A stretch of 64,000 nucleotides of DNA from Methyloglobulus sp. (GTDB lineage Bacteria; Pseudomonadota; Gammaproteobacteria; Methylococcales; Methylomonadaceae): contig JABFQX010000023.1 of assembly GCA_013141505.1 (NCBI GenBank), positions 1 through 64,000 on the forward strand, given 5' to 3'. Positions 5,208 through 24,038 of this stretch are shown here, in pieces. The notes below the pieces were generated by a model. The model made no database searches and was not told the origin of the DNA. It saw nothing but the letters and a program-made list of their open reading frames with translations. The stretch's first letter is position 1; every line of letters begins with the position of its first letter. The position numbers were made by a program, and so were the translations under genes.

Positions 5208-6111
5208 CGGATAAAAATTGCCATGATAATCTCGGCGCAATATTGACGAGAAACCCATTTTGGCAGCTAGCAGCAATAGGCTATAAAAATCAGCCCACGC
5301 AACATCTTTTAATCTTAAGCAACCGAACCCAAAACCCAGCATTTTAAAACATGGCTAAATCACACCCTTCCAACCAAGGCCTCGATGCAAGATGTTGTGC
5401 AATATTTTTAAAAAATTAGCAAGGTAATATTTCACATTTTCAGCGTGTACTATTACCTTGTTTGCTACAAGTCATCAATATAGACTTTCTTTGGGCTGAA
5501 CTGATTTACGGTGCGGTTGAAACAGCATTTCGCACCTAAAACATACAGATTAGTTAAACCAACTTGCACGAATTTCGACATGTGAGTTGAGATAAATTCC
5601 ACCCAATCTGGGGGCGATGTGTAGCCATGTTTTCAAATAAAAATGTTTTTTGCTCTGCAAACGCCCAACAACCGTTAACAGACAGAATTTATTTGAAAAA
5701 AGGAAATACGCTTCGCAAAAGCCCAAAAACAAACCTAACTATCGGCTGGCGCAACAATTCTTACCAATTTTTTACGTTTAAAAAGATATTTTTCATATTT
5801 AACAGATGCTTGAGAAAAAATTTAGAGCGAATTTTCTTAAGATTTGGAGCAATAAATTGACCAAACCATAAATACCTTAAGGAATTATTAAATGAACTTA
5901 GTTTTTATTATTTTTTCTTATATTTAAGGTATATTTAAGGCCACTGTTAACCGAATACTCCTTTTAACAAGGGTTAGCGAAGATTTATTGGGGGCATTTC
6001 ATAGTGAGAATGCTGAAAAGCAGAGCAAGGATGTAAACGGATTTCAGTGCTCGCCAATCGCGCCACTATGTGATGGACACATTAACAATAATCACATAAG
6101 AGGTTAAGATC
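5208..6111. other. Long AT-rich intergenic region with a structured leader candidate
   Basis: About 900 bp separate the lipoprotein gene from the large surface-protein gene. I see no convincing gene; the 77-codon frame at 5627-5860 has poor composition. The last 120 bp hold several complementary short segments (see the leader feature). The rest is AT-rich and probably carries the promoter of the 6.1 kb locus, which I cannot place exactly. Confidence 0.4.
6000..6070 (+). promoter_or_regulatory. Structured 5' leader candidate upstream of the 1825-aa gene
   Basis: CATAGTG (6000-6006) pairs with CACTATG (6064-6070). Inside this stem, CTGAAA (6013-6018) can pair with TTTCAG (6042-6047) and GAGCA (6023-6027) with TGCTC (6048-6052), an interleaved order that would make an H-type pseudoknot. 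An alternative is the hairpin TGCT-GAAA-AGCA (6011-6022) with a GNRA loop. It matches no riboswitch class I can recall. Function is inferred only. Confidence 0.3.
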
Positions 6112-9100
6112 ATGAAAAACATATTCCAACCAAATAGCTTGGGGGTTGGCATCAAACTGACCCTGACGGTGTCTTTGCTGGGTGCGCTGGTTATGCCAGA
6201 AGCGCAGGCAGGAATTACCTTGAATGTCGTTGACCATAATGGCGTAGCGATAACCAGCGGCTTCCGCTGGTTGGTTGAAACCGACAGTACACACACAACA
6301 ACCCCTGGTGTCCGAGATGTCAATGCGTTGGGGGTGAGCTTCCACAAAAGCGACTCTCCCGTATTGGCGGAAGGTCAAGCCGCTTCAGCAACTGCCAGCC
6401 TGACTGGCAACCGACTAACGGCTGGAAAACGAGTCTTTGTTTCCGTATTGCCGTACAAAGATTATTCAATCGGCGGCGGTATGGCAACCCTGAACGCTAG
6501 CGGCAATGCGACGCTGACCGTTACAGTTGACACCCATCCAATACCAACCACTCAGTTCTCTGCTTACGTATTTCACGATAAGTTTCCAATCAACAATGCC
6601 CCTGATGGCGGTAGTGAACAAGGCAGTGCGGCGACTTGCAATGGCCCCGACCACTTTTGTCCGCAAGAATTCACCGTCCAAATTGTTGATGCCGGGGGAG
6701 GCTATGGGGCAGCGGGCCCCGGCCCTTTAAGCACTGATGCTTTCGGTAATCCATTAGGCACCACTTACACTGCTTCGGGTGATGTTGATGTCTTGGGCAA
6801 TGGTATTATTCACCCTGACGAAACAGGCCTGGTTGTTGTCAAAAACCTGGTGCCCGCCAAATACTCGATCAATGTGATACCTCCAGCAGGGCAAGGTTGG
6901 GTGCAAACTTTCACTATTGAAGGCACAAAAGCCAATGATGTCTGGCTTGCGGCAGGCGGGCCAACATATACCAATGAATGGGGGCCGACCTTCTACCATA
7001 ACAACACCGGTTTTGTGAAAGAATTTACCGACACTACCGTATTGACAGGTGGAGCCACTATTTCTGGAACCATAACCAACAGTCACTTGACCGCACCCCC
7101 ATTGTTGGCAAATGTCGTTGGTGCGCCAATTCCTGAATGCAGGATCGGTTTAAACACCGTTGCTGGTGTCGGCGTATACAGTGGACGTTGCGATGCCAAT
7201 AGCCATTTCAATATACCCAATGTCCCAGATGGCAGTTACCAGTTAGTGGCATGGGATGATAATCTGGACTTGATTATTTCTTTCTATAACGTGGACGTGG
7301 TTGGCGGAGCTGCCACTATCAGCCAAGCCGATGCCAACGGCAATATTCCCGCCCCAAACTGGTTTCACTCATCTAATCACTTAGTATTCAATGATACCAA
7401 TGGCAATGGTTTCCGTGATGCTGGTGAAGTCGGCATAAAAAACAAAACCATCAACTTACGTTTCCGCGATGCCCGACTTTACCAAACCTCGCCTACTGAC
7501 ATCAATGGTAAAGCTGATTTCACAGAAGTATTTCCGTTTTTCCACTGGCTAGTCGCAGAGAGTGATTTTTCCCGTGACAAAGCAACCGGTGTCACAATCG
7601 TCACCGATGCCGGGGGCGCAATTCCGGCGGGTTCAACAGGAAATTTCCCTGATTTCGGTGTATTGACCCCGCAAGCTCAAATCTGTATGCCTGCTGATGC
7701 TTTGCTTTCTGGTTGCACCTTGGGCAGCCCCCTAAACAATCCCAGGACAGGCAATAACCTATCCCGTACCGAGCTATCAACTGCCGATACCGGCCCCCTT
7801 ATACTCCAAGCATTCCAAGGCTTTTTGGGACAAACTAATGTTTACCAATGGGGACGCAAACTTTACACGGGTAACGAAAACGGTGGTATCACTGGTATCG
7901 TTTATTACTCCAGCACGCGTGCAGAACACGATCCACGATACGGTGTAGGCGATCCTTGGGAGCCTGGGGTTGCACGCGTCCAGATGGCGCTTTATGCCGA
8001 TGGTGATCGCAATAACTTACCAGCCGCTTTTCCAGGGCCTGAAGATGTCAACTGGAATGGCGATACAGTCGTAAATCCAGCTGACGGTAAAATCGACGAT
8101 CTCAACGGCAATGGGGTGATTGACCGGGCGGATGTTGACAACTACCCATTTGGCTGGGCGGATGGTGGCACGATGGGGCCGGAAGATGTTGACAACCATC
8201 CTGCCAGTGCCGCCTTCAATAAAGGCGATGCCGTGCAAATATCTTCTACGGACAGTTGGGATGACAACAATCCGACTGGCTGCCAGAACGCCACGACTTT
8301 CTTTGTTGACCCTCTCAATGGTGGCGCACCTGTAGCCAAGGACTGCTATGACGGTTTGCGTAATTACAACCAATCTCGCCCCGGTGTTTATGATGGCGCT
8401 TATATGTTTGATGGTTGGCGCACTGAAAACCCAACAGGAATAAGACCTGGCAATTATATCGTTGAAGCATCGCCACCGAAAGGATTCAAAATAGTTAAGG
8501 AAGAAGATTTCAACGTCACCTTGGGCGACGTTTTTAACCCTAACCTGGTGCCACCCGAGTGTATCGGTAATTTGCACACAGTGCCTAACCTGTTGAGTTT
8601 ACAAGCTGATGCAGCCGGTAATTTCGTTGGAACGGACGACACCCCACCCATGTATGCGGGCCAACAACGCCCTCTGTGCGATCTGAAAAAAGTGAACCTG
8701 CAAGCCAAACAAAATGCGGCTGTAGATTTCCATGTATTCACTGATGTACCTCGATCTACTCGGGTTGTCGGCAACACTTTTAACGATGTGTTGGCAACAA
8801 TTGACCCCACTTCGCCCAATGCGGGTGAAAAAGCAAATCCAGCGTGGGTTCCGGTCTCATTCCGTGATCGTACCGGCCACGAAGTGGTACGCATACTGAC
8901 TGATGAATGGGGCGCTTTTAACGCCCAGTTACCTTCCACCTGGACCGCTAACGTACCCCTACCATCGGGTTTTTCGCCAGCCGTTTTTTCCGCCTGTGTT
9001 AATGACTCTGGCATTAAGCCTAACCCGAATTTTCCTGGCGGCAACAACTTGCCATTTATTCAGGACCCTAATTACGATCCTACGCTCGCCACCGTTTGCT

Positions 9101-11589
9101 GGCCTTTCCAATACATGCCCGGTACAACAACTTATCTGGATGCCCCAACTGTTTCTAAAGCCAGTTTCGCCGCTACCCGAAATTTTCCGGTGGATTGCGA
9201 ACAACCCACCAATACGCCTGCGATTGCTTCTGCGACAGGCGTTGATGGCGGGCCTTATGTGAAAGTGACGGGGCTTACGGGAACAGCCAGGACAGCGGCA
9301 CAAAGGACTTTGACCATCAAAGCGGCAGGGAATGTCCAAGTACCAAATCCACTCTATGACGGTGACGGATCGCCACCGAAATTGGTTAGCCGAAATTATG
9401 GTTTGGGAACACTGGGAAGCGGCGTAACAACAGCGCAAGTTAAATTGACCAATGCCAGTGGCGTTGTTATCGACAGCACCGGCACTGCTAACGCTACTAT
9501 TACTGGGGTCAGCTGTGCTGCGGTAGCGACAGCACCATCGGCAACTGGCTTTAGCTGTGGTTGGAATTCGGCGACTAATACGGTCGAAGTCTTGTTTGGC
9601 AGTAATTTCCTGGGTGGCGCGTATGACATCCTGCTGCATGCTGCGGGCGGCACTAATGGTAATTGGTCGCCTGTCGGCATTAAGGTGACAGTGGGCAATA
9701 ACGCCAGACCCGATCCTGGCAAGGCCGGTACAACCAGCATCTTACATGTTAACAATGGTCAAAAGATTCAGACGGCTATCGACGCTGCCAAAGCTAATGA
9801 CCTGATCCTGGTGGCTCCTGGTATCTACAATGAGCAATTGATTGTAGATAAACCGTTACGCCTGCAAGGTTCTGGGGCACTTACGACATTTATCTTTGCC
9901 CAAAAAACAACTGTCGATACGACGGATAATTGGCGTACCCATATGCAAGCCTCCATTAATGCCGGTAAAGTATCATTGTTGCCACCATTGACAGGCGTTG
10001 TCGCGACCGACTTCATCAATGATGAATTGGCCGGCATCAGCATCTTTGGCAAAAGCGCTGGCACCGGGCTTTTTACGGCTGGTGTGAACGCCCGTATTGA
10101 TGGCTTTACTGTCACCGGTGCAGATAATGGCGGTGGCATAAACGTCCATGGCTATGCCGATTATCTGGAAATCTCAAACAATATCGTCAAAGCCAACTCC
10201 GGCAATACCGCTGGCGGCATCAAAGTTGGCAGGACTGATTTGGCAGACCCTGCGACCGGCAATGACACCAATGCCAGCAATGACAACATCCGCATCCATA
10301 ACAATCAAATCAGCCAAAATGGTGGTTTGGGAACGGGTATTGAAGCTGCAGGCGGCGGTATTGGCCTGTATACGGGTGCCAATGGTTATCAAGTGAAAGA
10401 GAACTTCATCTGCGGCAATTTTTCCCAAGGTGATGGCGGCGGTATTGCCCATCAAGGCTTGAACTTGCGGACTACCCAGAAAGCGACCAGTGTGATTGAA
10501 AAGAACACCATCGTGTTTAATCAAAGCTTGTATTTCCTGGGCGGTTACGGCGGTGGGATTTCGATCTCTGGTTCAACGGGCGGTGTAGCAGGTGGCTTGA
10601 CGCAAGGATCTGGCCCGCTGGTCGTCAACGCCAACCGTATCGAAAGTAATCAGGCGGGCAGTGGCGATGGCGGCGGCATCAGCCTACGTTTCATCAACGG
10701 ACAGGATGTATCGGCAGCGGTTACCAATGGACATAAAGTCAGCTTGACCAACAACATCATAGCCAACAATATGGCGGCATTGGCAGGTGGAGGCATCATT
10801 ATGCAAGATGCTGTGCAGCTCAACATTGCCCACAACACGGTGGTCAATAACGATAGCGCCCCGTCCGTGCCTGAAGCCTTCGGCACCAACCTTAACCTGA
10901 GTAACCAATTCCCGGCTGGGATTGTTTCCAGGGTTCATAGCCCAACATTAAGTGCTTTGCCAAGTGTGGCATCAACCTTCTCGGATCCGTTGACTTTGGT
11001 CAACAATATTGTCTGGCATAACCGTACGTTCCAATGGACGGCTGACCTTAACAACAATGGTGCGCTCGATGACTCTGGATTCCTGCCTAATATCGGTGCA
11101 GGTGAAGCGGCCTTCTATGATGACTTTGGGGTATTGCCCGCCGGCACTGGCTCACTCAGCCCAACATGGAGCATCGTAACCAGCACGAGTGATGACCCTG
11201 GATTGAACAACGCGACTGCCAACAACCTGTTTGTGAATCAAAAGCTCAACGGTAGCCGTTCAGGTGCCGTCAATACGAGTATTTTCACTGCCAAGGTATT
11301 TGATGAGGCGGGAGCCGCATCCATTACGGTTGACTTTGGGCCTTTAACGCTCGGTAATCGCAACTATCATTTAACCACTGCCGCTAACCCAGCCATCGAT
11401 AAGGCTAAGGCACTCACCGCTGTGCCTAATGTCGGCATTCCCGGTGCCACTGATGTTCTGCTCTCTGACTACGACGCTCAGCTTCGTGTCCCGACAGCAA
11501 CGATACCCACATCAGCAAACGGATCGCTAAATGATATTGGCGCCGATGAACGCTTTGCCAATGAAGGAGACGTGCGGATATTGCCTTAA
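6112..11589 (+). CDS. Large secreted surface protein with calcium-site-like and beta-helix regions
   Basis: An 1825-aa exported protein with a Sec signal peptide ending near MPEAQAG (residues 1-34). The first half is a chain of beta-sandwich modules; one at about 435-470 has the SdrD-B-like pattern FNDTNGNGFRDAGE. Around 630-700 several Asp/Asn-rich calcium-type loops occur (DGDRNN, DLNGNGVID, ADVDN), resembling dockerin or EF-hand loops. From about residue 1209 a right-handed beta-helix begins (IQTAIDAAKANDLILVAPGIYNE) and runs to about 1600 with repeated IxxNxIxxN rungs. No catalytic motif or membrane anchor is evident. AAGAGG precedes the ATG. It stands first in a locus with three cupredoxin proteins and a protease, so a scaffold, adhesin or matrix role for the oxidase is plausible. 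Family assignment is by fold only. Confidence 0.75.
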   Translation: MKNIFQPNSLGVGIKLTLTVSLLGALVMPEAQAGITLNVVDHNGVAITSGFRWLVETDSTHTTTPGVRDVNALGVSFHKSDSPVLAEGQAASATASLTGNRLTAGKRVFVSVLPYKDYSIGGGMATLNASGNATLTVTVDTHPIPTTQFSAYVFHDKFPINNAPDGGSEQGSAATCNGPDHFCPQEFTVQIVDAGGGYGAAGPGPLSTDAFGNPLGTTYTASGDVDVLGNGIIHPDETGLVVVKNLVPAKYSINVIPPAGQGWVQTFTIEGTKANDVWLAAGGPTYTNEWGPTFYHNNTGFVKEFTDTTVLTGGATISGTITNSHLTAPPLLANVVGAPIPECRIGLNTVAGVGVYSGRCDANSHFNIPNVPDGSYQLVAWDDNLDLIISFYNVDVVGGAATISQADANGNIPAPNWFHSSNHLVFNDTNGNGFRDAGEVGIKNKTINLRFRDARLYQTSPTDINGKADFTEVFPFFHWLVAESDFSRDKATGVTIVTDAGGAIPAGSTGNFPDFGVLTPQAQICMPADALLSGCTLGSPLNNPRTGNNLSRTELSTADTGPLILQAFQGFLGQTNVYQWGRKLYTGNENGGITGIVYYSSTRAEHDPRYGVGDPWEPGVARVQMALYADGDRNNLPAAFPGPEDVNWNGDTVVNPADGKIDDLNGNGVIDRADVDNYPFGWADGGTMGPEDVDNHPASAAFNKGDAVQISSTDSWDDNNPTGCQNATTFFVDPLNGGAPVAKDCYDGLRNYNQSRPGVYDGAYMFDGWRTENPTGIRPGNYIVEASPPKGFKIVKEEDFNVTLGDVFNPNLVPPECIGNLHTVPNLLSLQADAAGNFVGTDDTPPMYAGQQRPLCDLKKVNLQAKQNAAVDFHVFTDVPRSTRVVGNTFNDVLATIDPTSPNAGEKANPAWVPVSFRDRTGHEVVRILTDEWGAFNAQLPSTWTANVPLPSGFSPAVFSACVNDSGIKPNPNFPGGNNLPFIQDPNYDPTLATVCWPFQYMPGTTTYLDAPTVSKASFAATRNFPVDCEQPTNTPAIASATGVDGGPYVKVTGLTGTARTAAQRTLTIKAAGNVQVPNPLYDGDGSPPKLVSRNYGLGTLGSGVTTAQVKLTNASGVVIDSTGTANATITGVSCAAVATAPSATGFSCGWNSATNTVEVLFGSNFLGGAYDILLHAAGGTNGNWSPVGIKVTVGNNARPDPGKAGTTSILHVNNGQKIQTAIDAAKANDLILVAPGIYNEQLIVDKPLRLQGSGALTTFIFAQKTTVDTTDNWRTHMQASINAGKVSLLPPLTGVVATDFINDELAGISIFGKSAGTGLFTAGVNARIDGFTVTGADNGGGINVHGYADYLEISNNIVKANSGNTAGGIKVGRTDLADPATGNDTNASNDNIRIHNNQISQNGGLGTGIEAAGGGIGLYTGANGYQVKENFICGNFSQGDGGGIAHQGLNLRTTQKATSVIEKNTIVFNQSLYFLGGYGGGISISGSTGGVAGGLTQGSGPLVVNANRIESNQAGSGDGGGISLRFINGQDVSAAVTNGHKVSLTNNIIANNMAALAGGGIIMQDAVQLNIAHNTVVNNDSAPSVPEAFGTNLNLSNQFPAGIVSRVHSPTLSALPSVASTFSDPLTLVNNIVWHNRTFQWTADLNNNGALDDSGFLPNIGAGEAAFYDDFGVLPAGTGSLSPTWSIVTSTSDDPGLNNATANNLFVNQKLNGSRSGAVNTSIFTAKVFDEAGAASITVDFGPLTLGNRNYHLTTAANPAIDKAKALTAVPNVGIPGATDVLLSDYDAQLRVPTATIPTSANGSLNDIGADERFANEGDVRILP

Positions 11590-11691: not shown

Positions 11692-12933
11692 ATGAAAACT
11701 GGCAAACTATTTTTTATAAGCATACCGCTCGCTTTAGCGGCCAATACTGCACTAACCCCTGCACTCGCAGGCGTTAATATCCAATGCCCGGGGGACGCTA
11801 ACGATGGCATTATAAATGCTGTACCGGCGCCTGGGCCCAACTATAATGCCAAGGTTAAATGCAAACACCTAAGCGCGGGCGACGGCTTCATTACTATGGC
11901 TGATGGTTCTGAACTATATATTTTTGGTTTCAGCAATTTGACAGGTATACCGCAGGCACAAACTGCCAGTGCGGGCATACTGACGGCAACCAGCACCGCA
12001 CCCAGCATTGTTTTGGATGAAGGCGATAAGTTTTACTTGTCCCTGACCAATGTAGGCACACTTAAACGACCCGATCTATTTGACCCACACTCGGTGCATT
12101 TCCACGGCTTCCCGAATGCGGCCAGTATTTTCGATGGCGAGCCAGAGGCATCGGCTGTCATCGGTATGGGGTCGACCTTTACCTATTTCTATGACATTAA
12201 AGAACCCGGCACCTACATGTACCACTGCCATGTGGAAGCGTCGGAACATATGCAGATGGGCATGTTGGGCAACCTTTATATCCATCCTGCCCAAGATAAA
12301 GGCCCTGCAATCAATGGCTACAGAAAATTTGCCTATAACGACGGCAACGGTGCAACAGGTTACGATGTGGAATTCCCCATTCAAATGGGTTCTTTCGACT
12401 CCAACTTCCATGCCAAGCATATTGCCGTTCAGCCCTTGCCTTTCGCCGACATGAAAGACGATTACCCCATACTTAATGGTCGCGGTTATCCTGATACCAT
12501 AAGTGCCACAGGACCTGCGGCACCTGCTGAAGTAGCTGACATGCATCCCAACTTAACGACCACTCAGCCGTTAAGCTCCAAAATTACTGTTCAATCAGGC
12601 AAACGTGCATTATTGCGTATATCCAACCTGAATGTGACTAGAAACTACACGCTGGCCGTTATGGGGCTTACCATGAAAGTAGTTGGCAAGGATGCCCGTA
12701 TTTTACGGGCAATGAGTGGTACTGACCCGCTGCAACCGCTCACCCAAACGGGAGCCGACCTTTCTTATGAAACCAACTCTGTAACTCTTGGTAGTGGCGA
12801 AACGGCTGATGTACTGATTGAAACAGCAGGTGTGGCTCCAGGTAAATACTTCCTGTATACCACTAACCTCAATTACTTGAGCAATGGTCAGCAAGATTTC
12901 GGCGGCATGATGACTGAAATTGAGATTATTTAA
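11692..12933 (+). CDS. Multicopper-oxidase half with type 1 copper site (cupredoxin protein A)
   Basis: A 413-aa exported two-domain cupredoxin protein with a signal peptide ending near ALAG (residue 27). The first cupredoxin domain has H133-SV-H136-F-H138-G, the HxxHxH motif, and H178-C179-H180 followed by H186 and M191 (YHCHVEASEHMQMGM). This is the set normally found in the last domain of a multicopper oxidase: a type 1 copper (H133, C179, H186, M191) plus half of a trinuclear centre (H136, H138, H178, H180). The other trinuclear half, HxHG plus HxH, is absent from this chain. The second domain (about 250-413) keeps the fold pattern but no copper ligands. AGAGG lies 9 bp before the ATG. 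The next gene, 30 bp on, has the complementary half, so the two may form one heteromeric oxidase. A stand-alone electron-transfer protein is the alternative. Confidence 0.85.
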   Translation: MKTGKLFFISIPLALAANTALTPALAGVNIQCPGDANDGIINAVPAPGPNYNAKVKCKHLSAGDGFITMADGSELYIFGFSNLTGIPQAQTASAGILTATSTAPSIVLDEGDKFYLSLTNVGTLKRPDLFDPHSVHFHGFPNAASIFDGEPEASAVIGMGSTFTYFYDIKEPGTYMYHCHVEASEHMQMGMLGNLYIHPAQDKGPAINGYRKFAYNDGNGATGYDVEFPIQMGSFDSNFHAKHIAVQPLPFADMKDDYPILNGRGYPDTISATGPAAPAEVADMHPNLTTTQPLSSKITVQSGKRALLRISNLNVTRNYTLAVMGLTMKVVGKDARILRAMSGTDPLQPLTQTGADLSYETNSVTLGSGETADVLIETAGVAPGKYFLYTTNLNYLSNGQQDFGGMMTEIEII

Positions 12934-12963
12934 GTCACATTTGCGAGCGATTAGGAGATTAAC

Positions 12964-14319
12964 ATGAAAAATCAATTCAACCTGATAAAGAGCTGTAAAC
13001 TTGCCGCACCTTTAGCACTGGCCTTGTCGATCTTTGCCAGCCCATCTTTGCAGGCAGGCGCAACAATACCGGGCATTACCGGACCCACTTTTACACTGAA
13101 TACCAACGATGATTTCCTGACCACCCCGGATGGCGGTAGCGTCTACGTTTGGGGATACGGGGTGGGCAACAATTCCGCCATGCAGTATCCTGGGCCGACC
13201 CTGATAGTCAACCAGGGGGACACCGTCACTATCAACTTGACCAACCATTTGCCGCAATATACCTCCATCGTCTTTCCCGGCCAGGAAGGTGTAACCAGCT
13301 CCTGCGCCATTGCTGCACAGTGTCGCAATGGCTTGCTCGCCAAAGAAGTCAGGCCGAACGGTAAGGTGACGTATTCTTTTGTTGCCGGTAAGCCTGGTAC
13401 CTACCTTTACCACAGCGGCACCCGACCAGACTTGCAATCGGAAATGGGCTTGGTTGGCGCCATGATTGTCCGTCCGACCGGCTACACGGGCGTTGGAGCT
13501 AACAATAGAGCGTATAACCATGCCGGTTCCAGATATGACCATGAATACATGTCGCTACTGACAGAAATGGACGTACGCATCCATGACGAAGTTCAAAACG
13601 GTGCCTATAATTCGGTTGATACCCGTGACTATAAACCGGTCTGGTGGTTTATCAATGGCCGAAACTCTGTCGACACATTATCGGCTGATAATGATGCCTT
13701 ACTACCTAACCAACCCTACGGCGCAGCCGTCCGCACCCGACCCGGCGAAAAAGTGTTACTTCGGCTGATTGGCGCCGGTCGTGACCCCCATCCTTACCAT
13801 ACCCATGGCAATAACTTCACCTTGCTTGCCAAAGATGCCCGGATGTTTGAAAGCAACCCTGGTGTTTCGGGGCCCAATCGGACGACCTCCGGTTTTACCA
13901 ATGAAACCTTTCCGGGCGACACCTATGATCTGTTGTTTACTTGGAGCGGTGCTGGTCTAGGTTGGGATATGTATGGTTACACCCATGCAACACAGCCCAC
14001 TTACTGTGGCGCGAACAATAATGCGCTGGCCGCGTACCCGGCAGACAAAAGGTCGCAACTGGCAACTGATCGCTGTAAACCGCTACCCGTTGTGTTGCCC
14101 GGTTTGCAGGAATTAACTTTCGGGCCTTTCTACAGTGGCAGCCCTTATTTGGGTGGCGAGGGACAGTTGCCCCCTGGCGAAGGCGGCTTCAATGCAAATA
14201 ATGGTTACTTTTTTATGTGGCACTCTCACAGTGAACGCGAACTGGTCAACTTTGATATTTTCCCCGGCGGCATGATGACTTTCCTGATTGTTGAGCCGCC
14301 CGGAACACCCATTCCCTAA
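12964..14319 (+). CDS. Multicopper-oxidase half without type 1 site (cupredoxin protein B)
   Basis: A 451-aa exported protein with a signal peptide ending near SLQAG (residue 32) and two cupredoxin domains. The first domain (about 60-170) has the sequence frame of a multicopper oxidase domain (YPGPTLIVNQGD) but its ligands are lost: the usual HxH is replaced by SIVFPGQ. The second domain has H276-PY-H279-T-H281-G and W-H420-S-H422. Where an oxidase's terminal domain would have HCH, this has HSH, so no type 1 copper can be built. H279, H281, H420 and H422 are what the first domain of a normal oxidase supplies to the trinuclear centre, and what protein A lacks. AGGAG precedes the ATG. Gene spacing of 30 bp to protein A supports co-expression and assembly. 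Substrate unknown; metal or phenol oxidation are possible. Confidence 0.85.
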   Translation: MKNQFNLIKSCKLAAPLALALSIFASPSLQAGATIPGITGPTFTLNTNDDFLTTPDGGSVYVWGYGVGNNSAMQYPGPTLIVNQGDTVTINLTNHLPQYTSIVFPGQEGVTSSCAIAAQCRNGLLAKEVRPNGKVTYSFVAGKPGTYLYHSGTRPDLQSEMGLVGAMIVRPTGYTGVGANNRAYNHAGSRYDHEYMSLLTEMDVRIHDEVQNGAYNSVDTRDYKPVWWFINGRNSVDTLSADNDALLPNQPYGAAVRTRPGEKVLLRLIGAGRDPHPYHTHGNNFTLLAKDARMFESNPGVSGPNRTTSGFTNETFPGDTYDLLFTWSGAGLGWDMYGYTHATQPTYCGANNNALAAYPADKRSQLATDRCKPLPVVLPGLQELTFGPFYSGSPYLGGEGQLPPGEGGFNANNGYFFMWHSHSERELVNFDIFPGGMMTFLIVEPPGTPIP

Positions 14320-14435: not shown

Positions 14436-16562
14436 ATGAAAACGAATATAAAACGCAGTATCCTTGCAGGTGCTACAGCTTTAATCTGCACCAATGCGCT
14501 GGGGGCGGAATACTGGCTGTGTGCAGGCAGCTTCAACAAAACCATGCCCGACAATAGTGTTGTACACATGTGGGGGTATGCGGACGTAAGCAATGTCGCA
14601 GCATTTCCTGCCCATGCCTGTCCAGCTAGCGGCAATGCCGCTTATACATCACCAGGCCCGCGTTTAACGGTACCGCTCGGCAACCCCAACTTGATCATCC
14701 ACCTTCAAAACACCCTGGGTGAAGCAACATCTTTGGTCATACCAGGCCAAACCGAAACCGCCATGGCTCCGGTCATAATTGGCAATAGGGTACATTCATT
14801 CACACATGAAGCGCCTGCCGGTGGAACTGATAACTATACTTGGGGAACAACGGCTAAACCGCTAAGACCGGGCAGTTACATTTATGAAACCGGAACTCAT
14901 CCGGCAAAGCAGGTTCAGATGGGCTTGTTTGGGGCGGTAACCAAAAATAATTCAGCGACTAACGCTTATCCGGGCGGCTCCGCCTTCAGCCATAGCACTG
15001 AAGTTATCGAGTTCTTGAGTGAAATTGATCCCGCTTTACATAGCCGGGTCGCCAGTGGCGCTTACGGTGCGGCTTGCGAAAACCCTGCCAACCCGTGTAC
15101 CGGCACCTTGGACTACAACCCAAGCTGGTTTCTGGTAAACGGCAATGCTTTCGTTGATCCAAGCCCGGCACTACCAGCAACTATTCCCGCAGGCAACACC
15201 GCTGGCACCACACTCATCCGTTTTTTTAACATGGGGTTACGTAGCCACAATATGATCCTGCAAGGCGGCAGTATGAAAGTGATTGCTGAAGATGGGCGCG
15301 TCTTACCAGCCCCACATGACCAATACTCCATTATGATGGCAGCCGGAAAAACCCATGATGTACTCTTCAGACCGTCAGCAGCAGGAATTTACCCACTTTA
15401 CGAACGGATGCATAACTTGGCATCAAGGGATCGCACGGTTAACGTGAAAACAGGTGGGTTGATGAGCTTTCTCAATGTGAGTGCAGGAACCGGAAACACA
15501 TCACCTTCCTTAAATGCTATTCCAACACCCCAATCTGCGATAGTGGGTACAGCTTTTAGCCTTACCGCAGTGGGTGTTGATGCTGATGTTGGTGATGCTA
15601 TTACGTATTCAATGTCTGGAAACCCTACTTGGCTTAGCATAAATAGCACCACCGGCATCATGTCTGGAACACCTGCTGTTGCCGGCTCATCAACAGTCAC
15701 AGTCACTGCGACAGATTTATCCGGCGCAACGGCAAGCCAAATTTTTACGCTTAACGTGACTTCCGCAGTTGCGACTCCGATTATTTATTTCTCCACTGCC
15801 GGCAATGTCAACCCGACAGGTCTCACAACAGGTATAGCTGACAATGCCGATATTTATTCATGGAATGGCACCGCTTTCAGTCGGCCCGTAAATACAGCTC
15901 GGAACGTCATTTCTGAAACAGGCTTTATTGCCAATCCACTCCCCTCTTCCGCTTCGGTGGACGAGTTGAAATATGTTGATGCAAGCCATTTCTACCTATC
16001 ATTCGCAAACGATGTGACCTTACCCGGCCTGGGCTTGGTGCAGGATGAAGATATTGTTTACTACAACAATGGGGTTTGGTCAGTATTTTTTGATGGTACT
16101 GCTGCAGGCCTGTCTAGTGCCACAGCAGCAACTGAACTCAATCTCGACGTTGATGCCTTTACTGTCATAGGTAGCACGGTGTACTTCTCAACCTTTGGCA
16201 ACAGTAATCCTCCTGGAGTGACAGGTATCGCTGACAACGCTGACATTTATTCATGGAACGGAACTGCATTCACAAAGGTTGTGAATATGTCTCTCAGCCC
16301 TTCAGAAACAGGCGTTATTACCAATCCTGTACCGGGCGCTGCAAATGTTGATGGCTTGAGATTTGTTGATCCTACCCATTTCTATCTCTCTTTTACAACT
16401 GATGTCGTGTTGCCCAATACCGGTGGAACACTGGCAGTACAAGATGAAGATATTGTTTATTACAATAATGGGGTTTGGTCGGTATTTTTTGATGGCACTC
16501 CTGGCTTAGGCGCGGCAACCGCCCAGCAAATTGATGGCTTTGACATTATCCCTTTACCGTAA
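14436..16562 (+). CDS. Degenerate cupredoxin protein with Ig-like domain and tandem C-terminal repeats (protein C)
   Basis: A 708-aa exported protein. After a signal peptide (to about residue 23) two cupredoxin-like domains follow that align in layout with protein B (TSLVIPGQ corresponds to TSIVFPGQ; YIYETGTHPAKQVQMGLFGAV to YLYHSGTRPDLQSEMGLVGAM) but no copper motif is intact. Residues about 357-445 are a cadherin/He-PIG-type Ig domain (WLSINSTTGIMSGTP). Then come two copies of a roughly 125-aa module, starting near 449 and 582, each with IADNADIYSWNGTAF and DEDIVYYNNGVWSVFFDG. It follows protein B after 116 bp with GAGGG before the ATG. It probably has a structural or substrate-binding part in the same assembly; it is unlikely to be an oxidase alone. 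Confidence 0.75.
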   Translation: MKTNIKRSILAGATALICTNALGAEYWLCAGSFNKTMPDNSVVHMWGYADVSNVAAFPAHACPASGNAAYTSPGPRLTVPLGNPNLIIHLQNTLGEATSLVIPGQTETAMAPVIIGNRVHSFTHEAPAGGTDNYTWGTTAKPLRPGSYIYETGTHPAKQVQMGLFGAVTKNNSATNAYPGGSAFSHSTEVIEFLSEIDPALHSRVASGAYGAACENPANPCTGTLDYNPSWFLVNGNAFVDPSPALPATIPAGNTAGTTLIRFFNMGLRSHNMILQGGSMKVIAEDGRVLPAPHDQYSIMMAAGKTHDVLFRPSAAGIYPLYERMHNLASRDRTVNVKTGGLMSFLNVSAGTGNTSPSLNAIPTPQSAIVGTAFSLTAVGVDADVGDAITYSMSGNPTWLSINSTTGIMSGTPAVAGSSTVTVTATDLSGATASQIFTLNVTSAVATPIIYFSTAGNVNPTGLTTGIADNADIYSWNGTAFSRPVNTARNVISETGFIANPLPSSASVDELKYVDASHFYLSFANDVTLPGLGLVQDEDIVYYNNGVWSVFFDGTAAGLSSATAATELNLDVDAFTVIGSTVYFSTFGNSNPPGVTGIADNADIYSWNGTAFTKVVNMSLSPSETGVITNPVPGAANVDGLRFVDPTHFYLSFTTDVVLPNTGGTLAVQDEDIVYYNNGVWSVFFDGTPGLGAATAQQIDGFDIIPLP
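16041..16499 (+). repeat. Internal duplication in the cupredoxin protein C gene
   Basis: The 60-bp blocks at 16041-16100 and 16440-16499 differ at only five positions, and all five changes are synonymous (CAG/CAA, TAC/TAT, AAC/AAT, TCA/TCG, GGT/GGC). The surrounding modules are more diverged. This indicates a tandem duplication whose core motif is held by selection on the protein, or by gene conversion. Confidence 0.75.
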
Positions 16563-16611: not shown

Positions 16612-16848
16612 TCTAAGTAATAAACTGATGAACCGCGTTGGTACTTGCTTTAACTTTTATTTTTCTGAACGTAACAACAGTTTTCTTCACCTGTGTCAGA
16701 TTGAGGGGTAAATCAAGGTAACTCATTTATTATTCGTAACTAGGTGATATTACGTATTATTAGATATACCTACTTCAATTACAATGATTTATACATTTTG
16801 AATTTAAGCTAAAGCGCAATATTGAATAATTTAATTAGGTACAACCTC

Positions 16849-19554
16849 ATGAAACCACTCCTACTTCGATTTATCATTGTTTCAGCCTTGGCTTCTTTTT
16901 CAATTCCGCTAACAGCCACAGCTGGGGTTGTCGATTCCCAACTGCAAGCGCAATTGGAAAATATTTCCCCCAATCAATTGGTTCCGGTGATTATTACCCT
17001 TAATATTCGTGCCAATACCAATGCCGTCCATATCGTAGACAAAGCCCGGCGCAGGGTTAAAATCATCCAGTCCATGCGCGACTACGCTACTTTGAAGCAA
17101 ACAGGCTTGCTGGCTTTTTTAAGACTCAACCGCGCAACTCAAATCAAGCCACTCTGGATTATCAATAGCGTGGCAGCCACAGTACCGGCTCGGGCAATCC
17201 TGAATTTAGCGGATGTCCCACTGGTTGCCAATGTTTACTTGGATGCAACCTTAAGTCTGCCACGTTCAAATAAATCGGTTTTAAGTGCGCCAGAATGGAA
17301 TTTATCTGCCATACACGCACCGGATGTCTGGGATTTAGGCTACACTGGACAAAGCGTCGTGGTGGCGAATATGGATACTGGCGTAGACGTAGCACATCCT
17401 GATCTTAACATCCAGTGGCGAGGTGGCAGCAACAGTTGGTTTGATCCACACGGAGAATACTCAACACCTACCGATTTCGCTGGCTCGCTTAGCGGCCATG
17501 GCACTCAAACCATGGGGCTAATAGTAGGCCGTGACACAAGCGGCACCACCATCGGCGTAGCACCTGATGCCCACTGGATAGCCACTAAACTTTTTAACCG
17601 TGTGGGCGTGGCTTTTGAAAGCGATTTTCACCAAAGTTTTCAATGGTTACTTGACCCAGACAATAACCCCCTGACCGATGATGCCCCAGACGTAGTCAAT
17701 GGTTCTTTTCAAACATCTACCTTCAATGTATGCGACACCCGCTTTCAGGCCGATATTCAGGCCTTGAAAACGGCTGGCATTGCCGTCGTTTTTGGCGCGG
17801 GCAACAGCGGCCCCTACGTATCTTCCAGCAGCAGTCCCGCCAATAATCCAGGTAGTTTTTCTGTCGGTGCAATTGATTATCTCTCGACAATCGCGACATT
17901 CAGTGGTCGTGGGCCGACCCCGGTCGAGTGTGGGAGCGCTCTTTTTCCTAGTATTGTTGCACCAGGTGTTGATGTCAACACGACTGACCTCACTTTTGCT
18001 GGTTCGGCAACATACGCAACCGTCAGTGGCACTTCTTTTGCGGCACCCCATGTTGCCGGCAGTATGGCGTTACTCATTGATGCATTTCCCAAAGTTGAGG
18101 TGACTGCACTGGAATCTGCGCTTCAGGATTCTGCGACCGATTTAGGCATTCCAGGTCAGGATAATGAGTCTGGCTTTGGCTTGCTGAATGTTTTGGGTGC
18201 GTACAATATTCTAGCTGCCAGCGGACGGGATCCGATTGGTGTCGATGATAGTTATGTGCTTGATGAAGACACTACATTGACAACGCCAGCACCTGGCGTA
18301 TTGGGCAACGATACCGATCCACAAAGCAATCCAATTTCTGCCACTTTATACACCGATGTTACTCATGGCTCGCTTATCCTGAACGCTGACGGTTCTTTTT
18401 TATATACGCCTGAAAGCAACTATAACGGTACCGACAGTTTTGCTTACAAAGCGACTGATGGCATGCATGAAAGCGGTATAGTGACTGTTATGTTAACCAT
18501 AAATCCGGTTAACGATGCACCGGTTGCTGTTGATGATGGCGCTTACACCGTCACTTCTGGCTATGTGCTAAATATTCTGGCCGCCTCCGGCGTATTGGCT
18601 AATGATACGGATATCGAAAATAACACCCTTAACGCCCTGCGAATGACTAACCCATCATCCGGCGAACTCACACTAAATTCTGATGGCTCTTTTAGTTTTA
18701 ATGCAGCTGGTGTGGTCGCCGGTAATTATGCTTTTACATATATTGCGGATGATGGCCTGGGCACCAATAACCTAAGCAACCTTGCGACCGTAACCATCAA
18801 TGTCCTACCAAATCCGGTTAATACGGCTCCGACTGCAAATAGCGATATTTTTCTCTACCGTCCCAATGTTGCACGTATCGTCAATAAAGCCGGTACTTTA
18901 GGTGCGGGTGTATTGCAAAACGATAGCGATGTAGACCTAAACCCCCTGACCGGTCAGTTTGTAACAAACAGCCTGTCTGGTGGCGGCAACCTGAACTTTA
19001 ATAGCGATGGCAGTTTTAGCTTTGTCAAAACCACAGGTGGACTCAGCAGTTTTCGTTACCGCGCCAATGATGGCACCCTGCTGAGTTCACCAATATGGGG
19101 GGCAACAGTCTATCTGCGTAAAGATGCAGTGCCCAAAACCCTACCCGACAACTGTGTTTACACTATTACCAGCAATGAGGTAAGTGAACCGGACAGATGC
19201 AGGGTTGTCGGCGACAGGGCAATCAAAATGTCGCTTGCTGCCAATGATGTCGATCCCAATCAGGTTGTTCATGTACCGACCGATGGCGTAGGAAGTACCG
19301 TTATCGCAAATTCCACCCTTATATCCTTTGCTGGTACTGGCGTTAATGTGAACGCCAATGCAGAATGTGGACAAATTGCTCTGGGCACTACCCGAACGGT
19401 TCGGGGTACGATTGACAATAACTGCGACGGCACAGTGACGGTTACGGCGGCTGATGGCAATAACTCGAAAACTATCAGCTATCATTACCGTATTAGTGAC
19501 GATCTGGGTGCACAATCGGGTCACAGGCAAGTCATTTTAACAATACGGCCTTAA
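16849..19554 (+). CDS. Secreted subtilisin-like (S8) serine protease with cadherin-like repeats
   Basis: A 901-aa exported endopeptidase. The order is signal peptide, I9-type propeptide region (to about 140), S8 catalytic domain (about 145-450), then three or four tandem beta-sandwich modules of the VCBS/cadherin-like type (GVLGNDTDPQSNPISA, GVLANDTDIENNTLNAL, GVLQNDSDVDLNPL). The catalytic triad is complete: Asp176 in MDTGVD, His217 in GHGTQT and Ser396 in SGTSFAAPHVAG. I chose the ATG at 16849 because the signal peptide starts there; an in-frame TTG at 16822 would add nine residues. It follows the cupredoxin genes in the same direction after about 290 bp and may mature or release their products, or act on the cell surface. 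No sorting signal of type IX or LPXTG kind is visible. Confidence 0.88.
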   Translation: MKPLLLRFIIVSALASFSIPLTATAGVVDSQLQAQLENISPNQLVPVIITLNIRANTNAVHIVDKARRRVKIIQSMRDYATLKQTGLLAFLRLNRATQIKPLWIINSVAATVPARAILNLADVPLVANVYLDATLSLPRSNKSVLSAPEWNLSAIHAPDVWDLGYTGQSVVVANMDTGVDVAHPDLNIQWRGGSNSWFDPHGEYSTPTDFAGSLSGHGTQTMGLIVGRDTSGTTIGVAPDAHWIATKLFNRVGVAFESDFHQSFQWLLDPDNNPLTDDAPDVVNGSFQTSTFNVCDTRFQADIQALKTAGIAVVFGAGNSGPYVSSSSSPANNPGSFSVGAIDYLSTIATFSGRGPTPVECGSALFPSIVAPGVDVNTTDLTFAGSATYATVSGTSFAAPHVAGSMALLIDAFPKVEVTALESALQDSATDLGIPGQDNESGFGLLNVLGAYNILAASGRDPIGVDDSYVLDEDTTLTTPAPGVLGNDTDPQSNPISATLYTDVTHGSLILNADGSFLYTPESNYNGTDSFAYKATDGMHESGIVTVMLTINPVNDAPVAVDDGAYTVTSGYVLNILAASGVLANDTDIENNTLNALRMTNPSSGELTLNSDGSFSFNAAGVVAGNYAFTYIADDGLGTNNLSNLATVTINVLPNPVNTAPTANSDIFLYRPNVARIVNKAGTLGAGVLQNDSDVDLNPLTGQFVTNSLSGGGNLNFNSDGSFSFVKTTGGLSSFRYRANDGTLLSSPIWGATVYLRKDAVPKTLPDNCVYTITSNEVSEPDRCRVVGDRAIKMSLAANDVDPNQVVHVPTDGVGSTVIANSTLISFAGTGVNVNANAECGQIALGTTRTVRGTIDNNCDGTVTVTAADGNNSKTISYHYRISDDLGAQSGHRQVILTIRP

Positions 19555-19610
19555 TCATGCAGAAGCCCTGGGATTTTTTAATCCTTACCTAACCAGAGGA
19601 TACATTGATC

Positions 19611-20174
19611 ATGTTGCAATTTGCAGCCTACCATTCACGAATGCGGTCAGCGTTGTTCGCTGTGCTGTCAGTGGTTTTCGGATTGCCTCCGGTAGATAGC
19701 CAAGCAGCTGACAAACAACCTCAGCCCCCCGCCCCACTAAGCAAGCAACAGAGCAACACGACTATCCAACCAATCGATGCCACTAAAACAGCGGCAATAG
19801 AAAAACGCTGGGGCGTGATTATCCAGGGCATTAAATTTGCGGCAGCAGGCCACATGCTGGACTTCCGTTTTCGGATTACCGATCCGGGCAAGTCGGCCAC
19901 TTTAATGGATCCTAAAAATAAGCCCTTTGCCACGATTGAAGGAAAAGACATTAAACTTGAAGTGCCGAATGTGCCTCGTATTGGTGCATTGCGGCAAAAA
20001 ACACAGCAGGCCAAAAAAGGGATGACGTTGGCTATTTTGTTTGCTAACCCTGGAAAAATGGTGACGACAGGGCAAAAACTGACCATAACCATTGGCGACT
20101 TTTCCATCGAACATATTCCCGTAGGCAAACTGTTGAATGCCCCGCCAAAACCCAAAAAGCCAGTAAAAAAATAG
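19611..20174 (+). CDS. Small secreted protein of unknown function
   Basis: A 187-aa protein with a signal peptide ending near SQAAD (about residue 32), then a Gln/Pro-rich linker and a compact domain of about 110 residues (RWGVIIQGIKFAAAGHMLDF to FSIEHIPVGK), ending in a basic Lys/Pro tail. The domain alternates short hydrophobic strands and looks like a small beta-sandwich. I know no family for it. I chose the ATG at 19611, with AGAGGA about 10 bp upstream; a TTG two codons earlier is possible. It lies 56 bp after the S8 protease gene in the same direction, so it belongs to that unit and could be a chaperone or inhibitor of the protease or a further surface component; both are guesses. Confidence 0.65.
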   Translation: MLQFAAYHSRMRSALFAVLSVVFGLPPVDSQAADKQPQPPAPLSKQQSNTTIQPIDATKTAAIEKRWGVIIQGIKFAAAGHMLDFRFRITDPGKSATLMDPKNKPFATIEGKDIKLEVPNVPRIGALRQKTQQAKKGMTLAILFANPGKMVTTGQKLTITIGDFSIEHIPVGKLLNAPPKPKKPVKK

Positions 20175-21031: not shown

Positions 21032-22831
21032 ATGGCAACAAAACTCAAAAAAAAGCCCTTGGCGATTACTGAAGTGGTGCTGCGTGATGCACATCAATCA
21101 ATTCTGGCAACCCGCTTACGCATCGAAGACATGCTTCCAATTTGCCCCAAGTTGGACGATATTGGCTACTGGTCTTTGGAATCCTGGGGCGGCGCTACGT
21201 TTGATGCGTGTATCCGGTATTTGGGCGAAGACCCCTGGGAGCGCTTACGCTTACTTAAAAAAGCCATGCCAAAAACCCGCCAACAAATGCTGTTGCGTGG
21301 GCAAAACCTGCTGGGTTACCGCCATTATGCTGATGATGTCGTTGATAAATTTGTCGAACGTGCCGCTATTAATGGCATTGACGTGTTCCGCGTCTTTGAT
21401 GCCATGAATGACATGCGTAACATAGACCGTGCTATCAAAGCGGTTTTAAATACCGATGCTCACGCCCAAGGGACTATTTCGTATACGACGAGCCCTGTCC
21501 ATACCATGGACGTATGGATTGATTTAGGCAAACAAATTGAAGATATGGGCGCGCATTCAATCTGCATCAAAGACATGGCTGGCTTACTTAAGCCTTATGA
21601 TGCCTTCGAACTGGTCAGCCGCCTGAAAAAAAGTACCAACATACCCATACACATGCAATGTCATGCGACCACAGGGTTAAGCGTCCCCAGTATCATCAAG
21701 GCGGCAGAAGCGGGGATTGACAATGTTGATACCGCCATTTCGTCACTCAGTATGACTTATGGACATAGCCCAACAGAAACAATAGTCGCATGCTTTGAAG
21801 GTACAGATCGCGAAACGAACCTTAATCTGGTTAAACTCGAAGAAATTGCCGATTATTTTCGGGAAGTCCGCAAAAAATACGCCCAATTTGAAGGCAGCCT
21901 GAAAGGTGTTGATGGCCGCATCCTGGTGTCGCAAGTGCCGGGGGGCATGTTGACTAATATGGAAAGTCAACTCAAAGAGCAAGGCGCCGCTGACAAGTTC
22001 GATGAAGTCATGCAGGAAATCCCCCGTGTGCGCGAAGATTTAGGCTTTATACCGCTGGTAACGCCGACCTCTCAAATTGTCGGCACCCAGGCGGTCATCA
22101 ACGTAATGAGCGGAGAACGCTATAAAACCATCACCAAAGAAACCGCCGGGGTTTTAAAAGGTGAATACGGCGCCACGCCCGCCCCGGTCAACAAGGAGCT
22201 ACAGGAACGGGTGCTGAATGGCGCGACTGCGATTAAATGCCGTCCGGCGGATTTGCTGACGGCTGAAATGGACAAATTGGTCTCGGAAGTGTTGGCCAAA
22301 GCCGAAAAGGAAGGCGTTCGACTGGCTGAAAGTGTTGAAGAAGATGCCTTGATCAACGGGATGTTCAACCAAGTGGGCTGGAAGTTTTTGGTCAACCGCA
22401 GGAATCCATCAGCCTTTGAGCCAGCGCCAAACCATCAGGATTACTTGGCGACAACATCGGCAAAATCAGCCATAAAAGCCGATAAAGCTGCTTCTTTAAG
22501 TGAAACCTATGCAGTTAACGTGGATGGCCGTAATTTTAAGGTATCCGTCAAACCCGGCGGCGATGGGTTGAACATTGTGCCAGAAGTCAGCGCGGCATTC
22601 GCTACGCCCGCCTCCAGCAGCGGCGAGGTGGTGACCGCCCCGATGGCGGGCACGGTCTTAAAAATCTTGTTCGAAGTGGGCGCGAGTGTCGCCAAAGGCG
22701 ACGTGGTTGTGATTATGGAAGCCATGAAGATGGAAACCGAAATCCGCACCAAAGTTGCCGGCATAATCAGTGCCATCCATGTCAAAGAAGGCGGCACTGT
22801 CGCCAGCGGCGATACCTTGGTTTCTTTGTAA
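21032..22831 (+). CDS. oadA: Oxaloacetate decarboxylase, alpha subunit (biotin enzyme)
   Basis: Carries out carboxyl transfer from oxaloacetate to biotin and bears the biotin itself. The 599-aa protein has the full order: carboxyltransferase TIM barrel (about 5-270), conserved carboxylase domain (about 290-460), and a biotinyl domain at the end with [10 protein letters not shown] and biotin-acceptor Lys566. Catalytic features include the metal-binding Asp in VLRDAHQS, Lys in CIKDMAGLL and the HxH pair in MQCHATTG. The Pro/Ala-rich linker of some homologues is short here. With oadG and oadB it forms the Na+ pump that turns decarboxylation energy into a sodium gradient, or works in reverse to fix carbon. 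Pyruvate carboxylase subunit B is similar in sequence, but the neighbours settle the assignment. Confidence 0.95.
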
Positions 22832-22910
22832 CACCGGCTGTTTCGGGAGCCTTGGCATGGTCATTTTGAGTTTTATTGTAGCAATAACGGATTTCAATTT
22901 ATAAGATCGC

Positions 22911-24038
22911 ATGGAAAACCTCCTTTCACTGTGGCAAAGCACCGGCCTGTACAACTTTACCGGTGGCCAGGCATTTATGATGCTAGTCGGCTTTGTGCTG
23001 TTGTTCCTGGCCATCAAGAAAGGCTTTGAACCGCTGTTGCTGTTGCCCATCGGTTTTGGTGCAATCCTCAGCAATATCCCTATCGCTGACATAGCCAAAG
23101 ATGGCGGCCTGTTGTATTACCTCTATTTCGGCATCAAACTCGGCATCTTCCCGTTATTGATATTTATGGGCGTGGGTGCCATGACCGATTTCGGCCCCAT
23201 GATAGCCAACCCCAAAACCTTGTTATTGGGCGCAGCAGCACAGTTTGGCATTTTTGCCTCATTATTGGGTGCATTGGCACTCAATATTATTCCCGGCCTA
23301 GAATTCAGTTTAAAAGATGCCGCCGCCATTGGCATTATCGGTGGTGCCGACGGCCCAACGGCTATTTATGTGGCTTCCAAATTAGCCCCGGATTTATTGG
23401 GCGCGATTGCGGTGGCGGCGTATTCTTACATGGCCTTGGTGCCTTTAATCCAACCGCCCATCATGCGGGCATTGACGACCGAAGACGAACGCAAAATTGA
23501 AATGGTGCAAATGCGCGATGTCAGCAAAGCCGAAAAAATCGTTTTTCCCTTAATGCTGCTGTTCTTGTCGATCTTGCTCCTGCCCTCCGCTACGCCTTTA
23601 ATCGGCATGTTTGCCTTGGGCAACTTAATGCGAGAAAGCGGCGTGGTGGAACGCTTAAGCAGCACCGCGCAAAATGAACTTATCAACATCGTCACCATCT
23701 TTCTAGGCTTGTCGGTCGGTTCAAAATTGAGCGCAGAAGCATTTTTGCAAGTCAAAACCTTAGGGATATTGGCCTTGGGCGCTTGTGCCTTCGCGATTGG
23801 CACCGCAGCAGGTGTCATCATGGCAAAAATCATGAACCGGTTCAGCAGCACTTTGATCAATCCCTTGATCGGTGCGGCTGGCGTATCTGCCGTGCCAATG
23901 GCGGCGCGTGTCGCCAACAAAATTGGTTTGGAAAGCAATCCCCATAACTTCTTGCTCATGCATGCTATGGGCCCTAATGTCGCTGGCGTCATCGGCTCTG
24001 CGGTAGCGGCTGGGGTATTATTGAGCCTTGTTAAGTAG
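22911..24038 (+). CDS. oadB: Oxaloacetate decarboxylase, beta subunit (sodium pump)
   Basis: Integral membrane protein of 375 aa with about nine to ten hydrophobic helices. It decarboxylates carboxybiotin and exports Na+. The strongly conserved stretch [23 protein letters not shown] holds the Asp believed to act in Na+ transport, and the C-terminal region with [12 protein letters not shown] and [12 protein letters not shown] is also typical. It follows oadA by 79 bp and completes the oadGAB operon. No clear intrinsic terminator follows; the gene runs toward the convergent hsdR, 107 bp away. Confidence 0.95.

Follow-up and report, generated by a model that had tools for sequence, protein, structure and literature searches.

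The 64,000-nucleotide stretch of Methyloglobulus sp. analysed here (assembly GCA_013141505.1, contig JABFQX010000023.1, positions 1 to 64,000; referred to below as the window) encodes three consecutive cupredoxin genes, A, B and C, in which the copper ligands of a single multicopper oxidase (MCO) are divided between the first two gene products. No polypeptide of the set carries both halves of the trinuclear ligands: A has the domain 1 half, together with the type 1 copper ligands, B has the domain 2 half, and C has neither. Because A and B jointly hold exactly one full set, the active site is probably formed where two different proteins meet. We consider it likely that A, B and C assemble as a heterotrimeric ring on the plan of the type C homotrimeric two-domain oxidases, in which one copper site has been kept, at the contact of A domain 1 with B domain 2. 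Somewhat less firmly, but still on the favourable side, the cassette can be read as an obligate three-gene oxidase of the cell surface, with a site built from two gene products, that represents a living intermediate between homotrimeric and six-domain oxidases in several phyla.

Gene A (11692–12933, forward strand) encodes a protein of 413 aa that matches the Pfam families Cu-oxidase_3, Cu-oxidase_2 and Cu-oxidase_1. Its ligands lie in two motifs of domain 1, HSVHFHG (H133, H136 and H138; the six letters HSVHFH at 12088–12105) and HCHVEASEHMQMGM (H178, C179, H180, H186 and M191; 12223–12264). By alignment to single-chain two-domain oxidases, H133, C179, H186 and M191 take the type 1 roles and H136, H138, H178 and H180 the trinuclear ones; domain 2 of A has no ligands. 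Gene B (12964–14319, forward strand), which starts after a gap of 30 bases, encodes a 451-aa protein with Pfam copper-oxidase domains. It has no ligand set in domain 1 and the other half of the trinuclear ligands in domain 2, in the motifs HPYHTHG (H276, H279 and H281, the last two being those of the HTH in HTHG at 13798–13806) and HSH (H420 and H422, 14221–14229). Leaving H276 out of the count, A and B together possess ten His, one Cys and one Met, which is one oxidase set. The initial annotation had given the same open reading frames (ORFs) and ligand residues and had noted that the set is complete only in the two proteins combined, all of which is correct. As to the refuting case of A as a full oxidase on its own, A is without the second trinuclear half.

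The division is kept throughout the family. The B profile matched 205 relatives in 84,980 species genomes, of which the best 80 were read; with eight further loci (two copies from the window genome and six relatives) these gave 86 A rows and 88 B rows. The rows are not fully independent, in that L069 and L087 come from the same genome, as do L070 and L102, and some genomes contribute two copies. A ORFs longer than 500 to 520 aa were trimmed to their last 430 residues and long B ORFs to 500; C was trimmed to its first 400 to 480 residues, and the broken C of L069 was excluded. Counting rows that have a letter at the position, H133, H136 and H138 are kept in 83 of 83 A rows and H178, C179, H180, H186 and M191 in 84 of 84. 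In B, H279 and H281 are present in 88 of 88 rows and H420 and H422 in 87 of 87, the B ORF of L151 stopping before this last pair. The best 80 loci include Pseudomonadota, Deltaproteobacteria, Nitrospirae, Planctomycetes, Acidobacteria, Verrucomicrobia, Myxococcota and others.

The complementary positions are mostly occupied by other residues. Equivalents of C179, H133, H136, H138 and H180 are found in no B row with a letter there, an equivalent of C179 in no C row with a letter, and equivalents of H279, H281 and H422 in no A row. Stray residues in B amount to a His at the H186 place in one row and a Met at the M191 place in two. In C, a His occurs at the H136 place in four of 87 rows, at the H138 and H186 places in one row each, and, among the positions of B, at the H281 place in 3/88 rows and the H420 place in 2/87. 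No subunit carries a second ligand set, and only the H178 place is often retained. Given its invariance across the A and B rows, the complementary pattern is, as judged from the alignments, more than chance.

Models of A and B were built with AlphaFold2 from alignments of 71 A rows and 72 B rows, from which cut, short or near-duplicate rows had been excluded. The mean predicted local distance difference test (pLDDT) score is 86.3 for A, in which the weakest stretch (142–152) adjoins the first ligand motif, and 90.4 for B. Compared with the structures 3g5w and 2zwn, both models have two cupredoxin domains per chain, and these two structures are also their closest folds (for A, Z 28.6, root-mean-square deviation 1.9 and 264 residues aligned; for B, Z 30.4, deviation 2.6–2.9 and 272–275 residues). 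They lead the next matches, which are other two-domain oxidases and nitrite reductases, by at least 2 Z units for either model. 3g5w is a blue copper oxidase of Nitrosomonas europaea and 2zwn a laccase from a metagenome, and we take both to be of type C. According to the part of PMC13151041 covered here, type C two-domain oxidases have their type 1 copper in the N-terminal domain, where A has its type 1 ligands (H133, C179, H186 and M191), and two-domain oxidases form trimers in which two protomers contribute the trinuclear ligands. Type C is thus the appropriate comparison, in place of the small laccases of type B to which the proteins had been likened at first.

In 3g5w and in the single-chain relatives L190–L192, both halves of the site lie on one chain, in the same columns as those of A and B, with the pattern HxxHxHG and HCH in domain 1 and HxxHxHG and HDH in domain 2. 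A and B therefore resemble type C oxidases in their fold, their domain 1 type 1 ligands and their trinuclear columns. In contrast to those oxidases, which are homotrimers of complete chains with three sites, the halves are found here on separate gene products, and there is an extra third chain without a ligand set.

The HSH motif of B had been interpreted as an altered HCH, the change removing the type 1 copper and making the split one-way. This is ruled out by the single-chain relatives, all three of which carry HDH at this position, so that HSH is the normal motif of a domain without type 1 copper; three B proteins have HNH.

Gene C (14436–16562, forward strand; 708 aa) matches Pfam Cu-oxidase and He_PIG and consists of a two-domain cupredoxin, a feature known by sequence only, followed by a C-terminal Ig-like region. 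It aligns to B and is without a ligand set, the C of the window containing none of the motifs of A or B. C was missed in the initial annotation, whose division between two polypeptides accordingly describes the complementary halves well and the system incompletely. Likewise, its trinuclear centre shared by A and B is in keeping with their co-occurrence, adjacency, complementary ligands and fold class, although the conserved unit comprises at least three genes. For this reason a three-subunit ring is more likely than an A-B pair, and we propose C as the third subunit of the copper protein set.

Among the best 80 loci, the order A-B-C on the same strand is seen in all 78 that have the three genes at least partly on the contig; in the other two (L091 and L122) the contig starts inside the cluster. 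No ORF holding A and B together, or joining A, B and C, was found in these 80 loci. A and B also co-occur. In 299 evenly drawn Burkholderiaceae genomes, A (E ≤6e-57) and B (E ≤5e-117) are present in the same six (G208, G616, G629, G646, G718 and G829), the best matches in the others being 1e-17 for A and 4e-25 for B. In the family of a Sideroxydans metagenome-assembled genome (MAG), nine of 158 genomes have A, and eight of these have B; the ninth A (G915) stops 43 bases from the contig end, on the side where B is expected. Among 345 genomes from the phylum to which Geothermobacter belongs, B occurs in 15, at 16 full-length loci, some of them overlapping with the best-80 set, and all 16 are flanked by A and C. 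The 200 relatives of the window genome yielded two strong B matches without A, G006, where an end of B lies together with C at the contig start, and G169, a broken fragment that is considered below. Wide occurrence of B homologues without A, which the initial annotation had set out as a refuting case, was thus not seen: no intact B without A was found in the genome samples read, the exceptions being contig ends and this one fragment.

B was also found in eight large replicon records of Cupriavidus and Paraburkholderia that are listed as plasmids, with A-B-C in both of those opened; Cupriavidus metallidurans CH34 is one of the carriers of the cluster. When viral contigs were scanned with the B profile, 14 stretches matched, but none was a relative.

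A tree of 69 two-domain units places A, B and C each in a clade of its own (support 100/100, 100/99 and 99/95, respectively). As each gene forms its own clade, the split into A, B and C either predates the sampled lineages or was followed by movement of the cassette as a whole. The tree is unrooted; a branch with 100/97 support has both B and C on the same side.

A second, smaller split system was encountered at nine two-gene loci (L075–L081, L084 and L085), in which a B-like gene of 303–343 aa precedes an A-like gene of 329–378 aa, as on the minus strand of L075 (4610–5626 and 5642–6553). The same complementary copper ligands are found in nine of nine B-like and nine of nine A-like proteins. 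At the place of the HSH of B, these relatives have HIH, HVH, HSH, HLH and once HCH, the last in the B-like protein of L085, all others having an HxH motif that lacks Cys. The stretches fetched around the nine loci yielded no third ORF resembling A, B or C.

Upstream of A, gene D (6112–11589, forward strand; 1825 aa) encodes an SdrD_B domain and has a weak match to NosD that is below the cut-off. All 60 loci with enough sequence before A have a homologue of D, which lies upstream of the A ORF or inside it in 57 and downstream in three (L143, L155 and L161); relatives of D have adhesin-like or polysaccharide-lyase-like domains. Five loci (L112, L132, L135, L164 and L166) carry a fusion with D on the N-terminal side of A; in L155, L161, L204, L205 and the Sideroxydans-like L228, D is instead joined to C, on its C-terminal side. 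That D is joined to A in some loci and to C in others suggests that the three proteins act together. D is a member of the cassette and probably resides at the cell surface.

Downstream of C, the window contains a 910-aa subtilase with cadherin-like repeats (16822–19554, forward strand; Pfam Peptidase_S8), the usual neighbour on this side, with homologues in 43 of 53 loci that have 3.5 kb after C. It is followed by a small gene of 189 aa (19605–20174, forward strand) that has no Pfam match but has homologues in other cassette loci. No SCO1/SenC or cytochrome gene was found among the nine window neighbours searched. L128 has a SCO1/SenC gene and a cytochrome-like gene after its cassette, and L228 has such genes as judged by position. 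Past the cassette (21032–24035) lie genes resembling the alpha and beta subunits of the sodium-pumping oxaloacetate decarboxylase (PYC_OADA with a biotin domain, and OAD_beta). The window genome also has a second cassette, on contig C46 (L068), in which D, A, B, C, the subtilase and the 189-aa gene all have homologues; its A and B are about 75–79% identical to the window copies.

Two further features of the cupredoxin genes are worth recording. One is a stretch of B domain 2 (13969–14100, about residues 336–379) in which Cys and His columns are kept in most relatives: C348 is present in 61 of 64 rows with a letter, and position 370 is a His in 79 of 85 rows and an Arg in the window copy. The other is a single His that closes domain 1 and falls in the same alignment column in A (H240; 84/84 rows), B (H207; 85/87) and C (H202; 76/87), with Ala in three of three single-chain relatives. 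An extra metal site or an interface site in the ring is one possible role for this residue.

The proposed assembly is as follows. A, B and C would be three diverged copies of a type C two-domain oxidase subunit. All three have N-termini that resemble signal peptides when read by eye, and they would assemble outside the cytoplasmic membrane as a ring of three different subunits. In the homotrimer plan each of the three interfaces, at which domain 1 faces domain 2 of the next subunit, holds a trinuclear site; in the A-B-C ring two of the three sites would have been lost and one kept. Domain 1 of A would supply the type 1 copper (H133, C179, H186 and M191) and the trinuclear ligands H136, H138, H178 and H180, and domain 2 of B the four remaining trinuclear His (H279, H281, H420 and H422), whereas C, A domain 2 and B domain 1 would be structural. 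Electrons would enter at the type 1 copper of A and pass through the HCH motif to the A/B interface, where O2 would be reduced. D and the Ig-like tail of C would probably anchor the complex at the cell surface. As to the electron donor, our guess is a reduced metal, either Fe(II) or Mn(II).

Several observations weigh against this assembly. The ligand split is not perfectly clean: the H178 place is a His in 45 of 88 B rows (H150 in the window B) and in 21 of 87 C rows, and the H420 place is a His in three of 85 A rows. In G169 (L082, about 5971–6498) a B fragment with an internal stop has no A or C nearby; it is probably the remnant of a lost cassette. Mutual information over 85 paired A/B/C rows gives no distinct signal for A domain 1–B domain 2, which stands at 1.5 times the expected number in the top 25 pairs and at 0.84 in the top 100, and the strongest enrichment in the top 25 (4.2 times) belongs to B domain 1–C domain 1, a pair that the ring does not predict. 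Finally, C may not be needed, because the two-gene relatives have no third partner found nearby.

This last point bears on an alternative that we regard as unlikely, though not negligible, in which A and B share the copper site in another stoichiometry, for example as A1B2 or as a hexamer, and C, an adhesin-like protein, stands apart from the ring. The nine two-gene loci, with their complementary ligands and without a similar third ORF in the stretches fetched, are what such an arrangement would look like. However, C follows A and B in 78 of 78 loci and keeps its two-domain cupredoxin half, it shares with B one side of the 100/97 branch, and D is fused to either A or C; in addition, two-domain oxidases are known to occur as trimers (PMC13151041, in the part covered). 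These points argue for the ring of A, B and C.

Less probable again is that there is no trinuclear site, A being a blue copper (type 1) carrier of electrons and B serving as a store or chaperone for copper, each with half-sites left over from an ancestor. The full set is indeed on neither protein, and L128 has an SCO1/SenC gene close to its cassette. Yet remnants would decay, and the four trinuclear His of A and the four of B do not vary across several phyla. Of the corresponding places in C, in domain 1 of B and in domain 2 of A, only the H178 place often has a His.

A complex that works like the copper nitrite reductases, with type 1 and a single type 2 copper, is very improbable. Nitrite reductases share the fold (Z 24 to 28 to the A and B models) and use one domain 2 His of the next subunit, but they have Asp where A has H136 and are without the HxH/HxH pair of B, and the nitrite reductase equivalog TIGR02376 scores 26 bits with A and 34 with B, far under its cut-off of 296.

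A cluster of this kind is already in print. For Sideroxydans lithotrophicus ES-1, a tandem of three MCO genes, accompanied by a mofC-like gene and one for a copper chaperone, has been described, with an extracellular location predicted (PMC5566968). The cluster Slit_1812–1818 of the same strain was expressed more highly in late magnetite cultures than in those on Fe(II)-citrate, and canonical MCO motifs are reported for Slit_1817 and Slit_1818 and none for the larger Slit_1816 (PMC12016527). The 3,003,656-base contig G980:C1 encodes an A (HTVHFHG and an HCH motif), a B (HPFHFHG and HSH), a C-D fusion of 2879 aa, two small genes, a 212-aa gene at the SCO1/SenC place (assigned by place, Pfam search not having been applied) and a gene with one heme motif, in the order of the Slit_1812–1818 locus numbers as given in the sections of PMC12016527 covered. 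The window resembles this type in its tandem of three cupredoxin genes, of which two have MCO motifs and the larger third has none, but differs from it in the lack of a SCO1/SenC or cytochrome gene among the neighbours searched. The portions of PMC12016527 and PMC5566968 covered here do not state that each protein has half a site, so the cluster itself is published and the ligand split was not found stated in those portions. Searches of open-licence papers listed no work that was recognised, by title or start of abstract, as dealing with an oxidase copper site split between gene products.

The six-domain oxidases (MnxG, MofA and ceruloplasmin) offer another comparison. They also have six cupredoxin domains in all and one trinuclear site, but in one chain instead of three separate genes. 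In MnxG the C and D motifs are reported to precede the A and B motifs (PMC3618234, in part), which corresponds to the order of gene A and then gene B here. The bacterial trinuclear site has been placed between domains 2 and 3 instead (PMC3600357, in part). No match recognisable as MnxG or MofA was present among the matches listed for the 299 Burkholderiaceae genomes.

In a published scheme, six-domain oxidases arose from a triplicated two-domain protein with three trinuclear sites, two of which were lost (PMC3600357, in the part covered). If the proposed assembly is correct, a ring of three chains with one site would be a natural step toward ceruloplasmin and MnxG that survives in several bacterial phyla. 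It would also change the reading of a candidate mineral-oxidation cluster, in that the two proteins reported to have canonical motifs would be inactive apart, and expression or annotation of either gene alone would therefore mislead.

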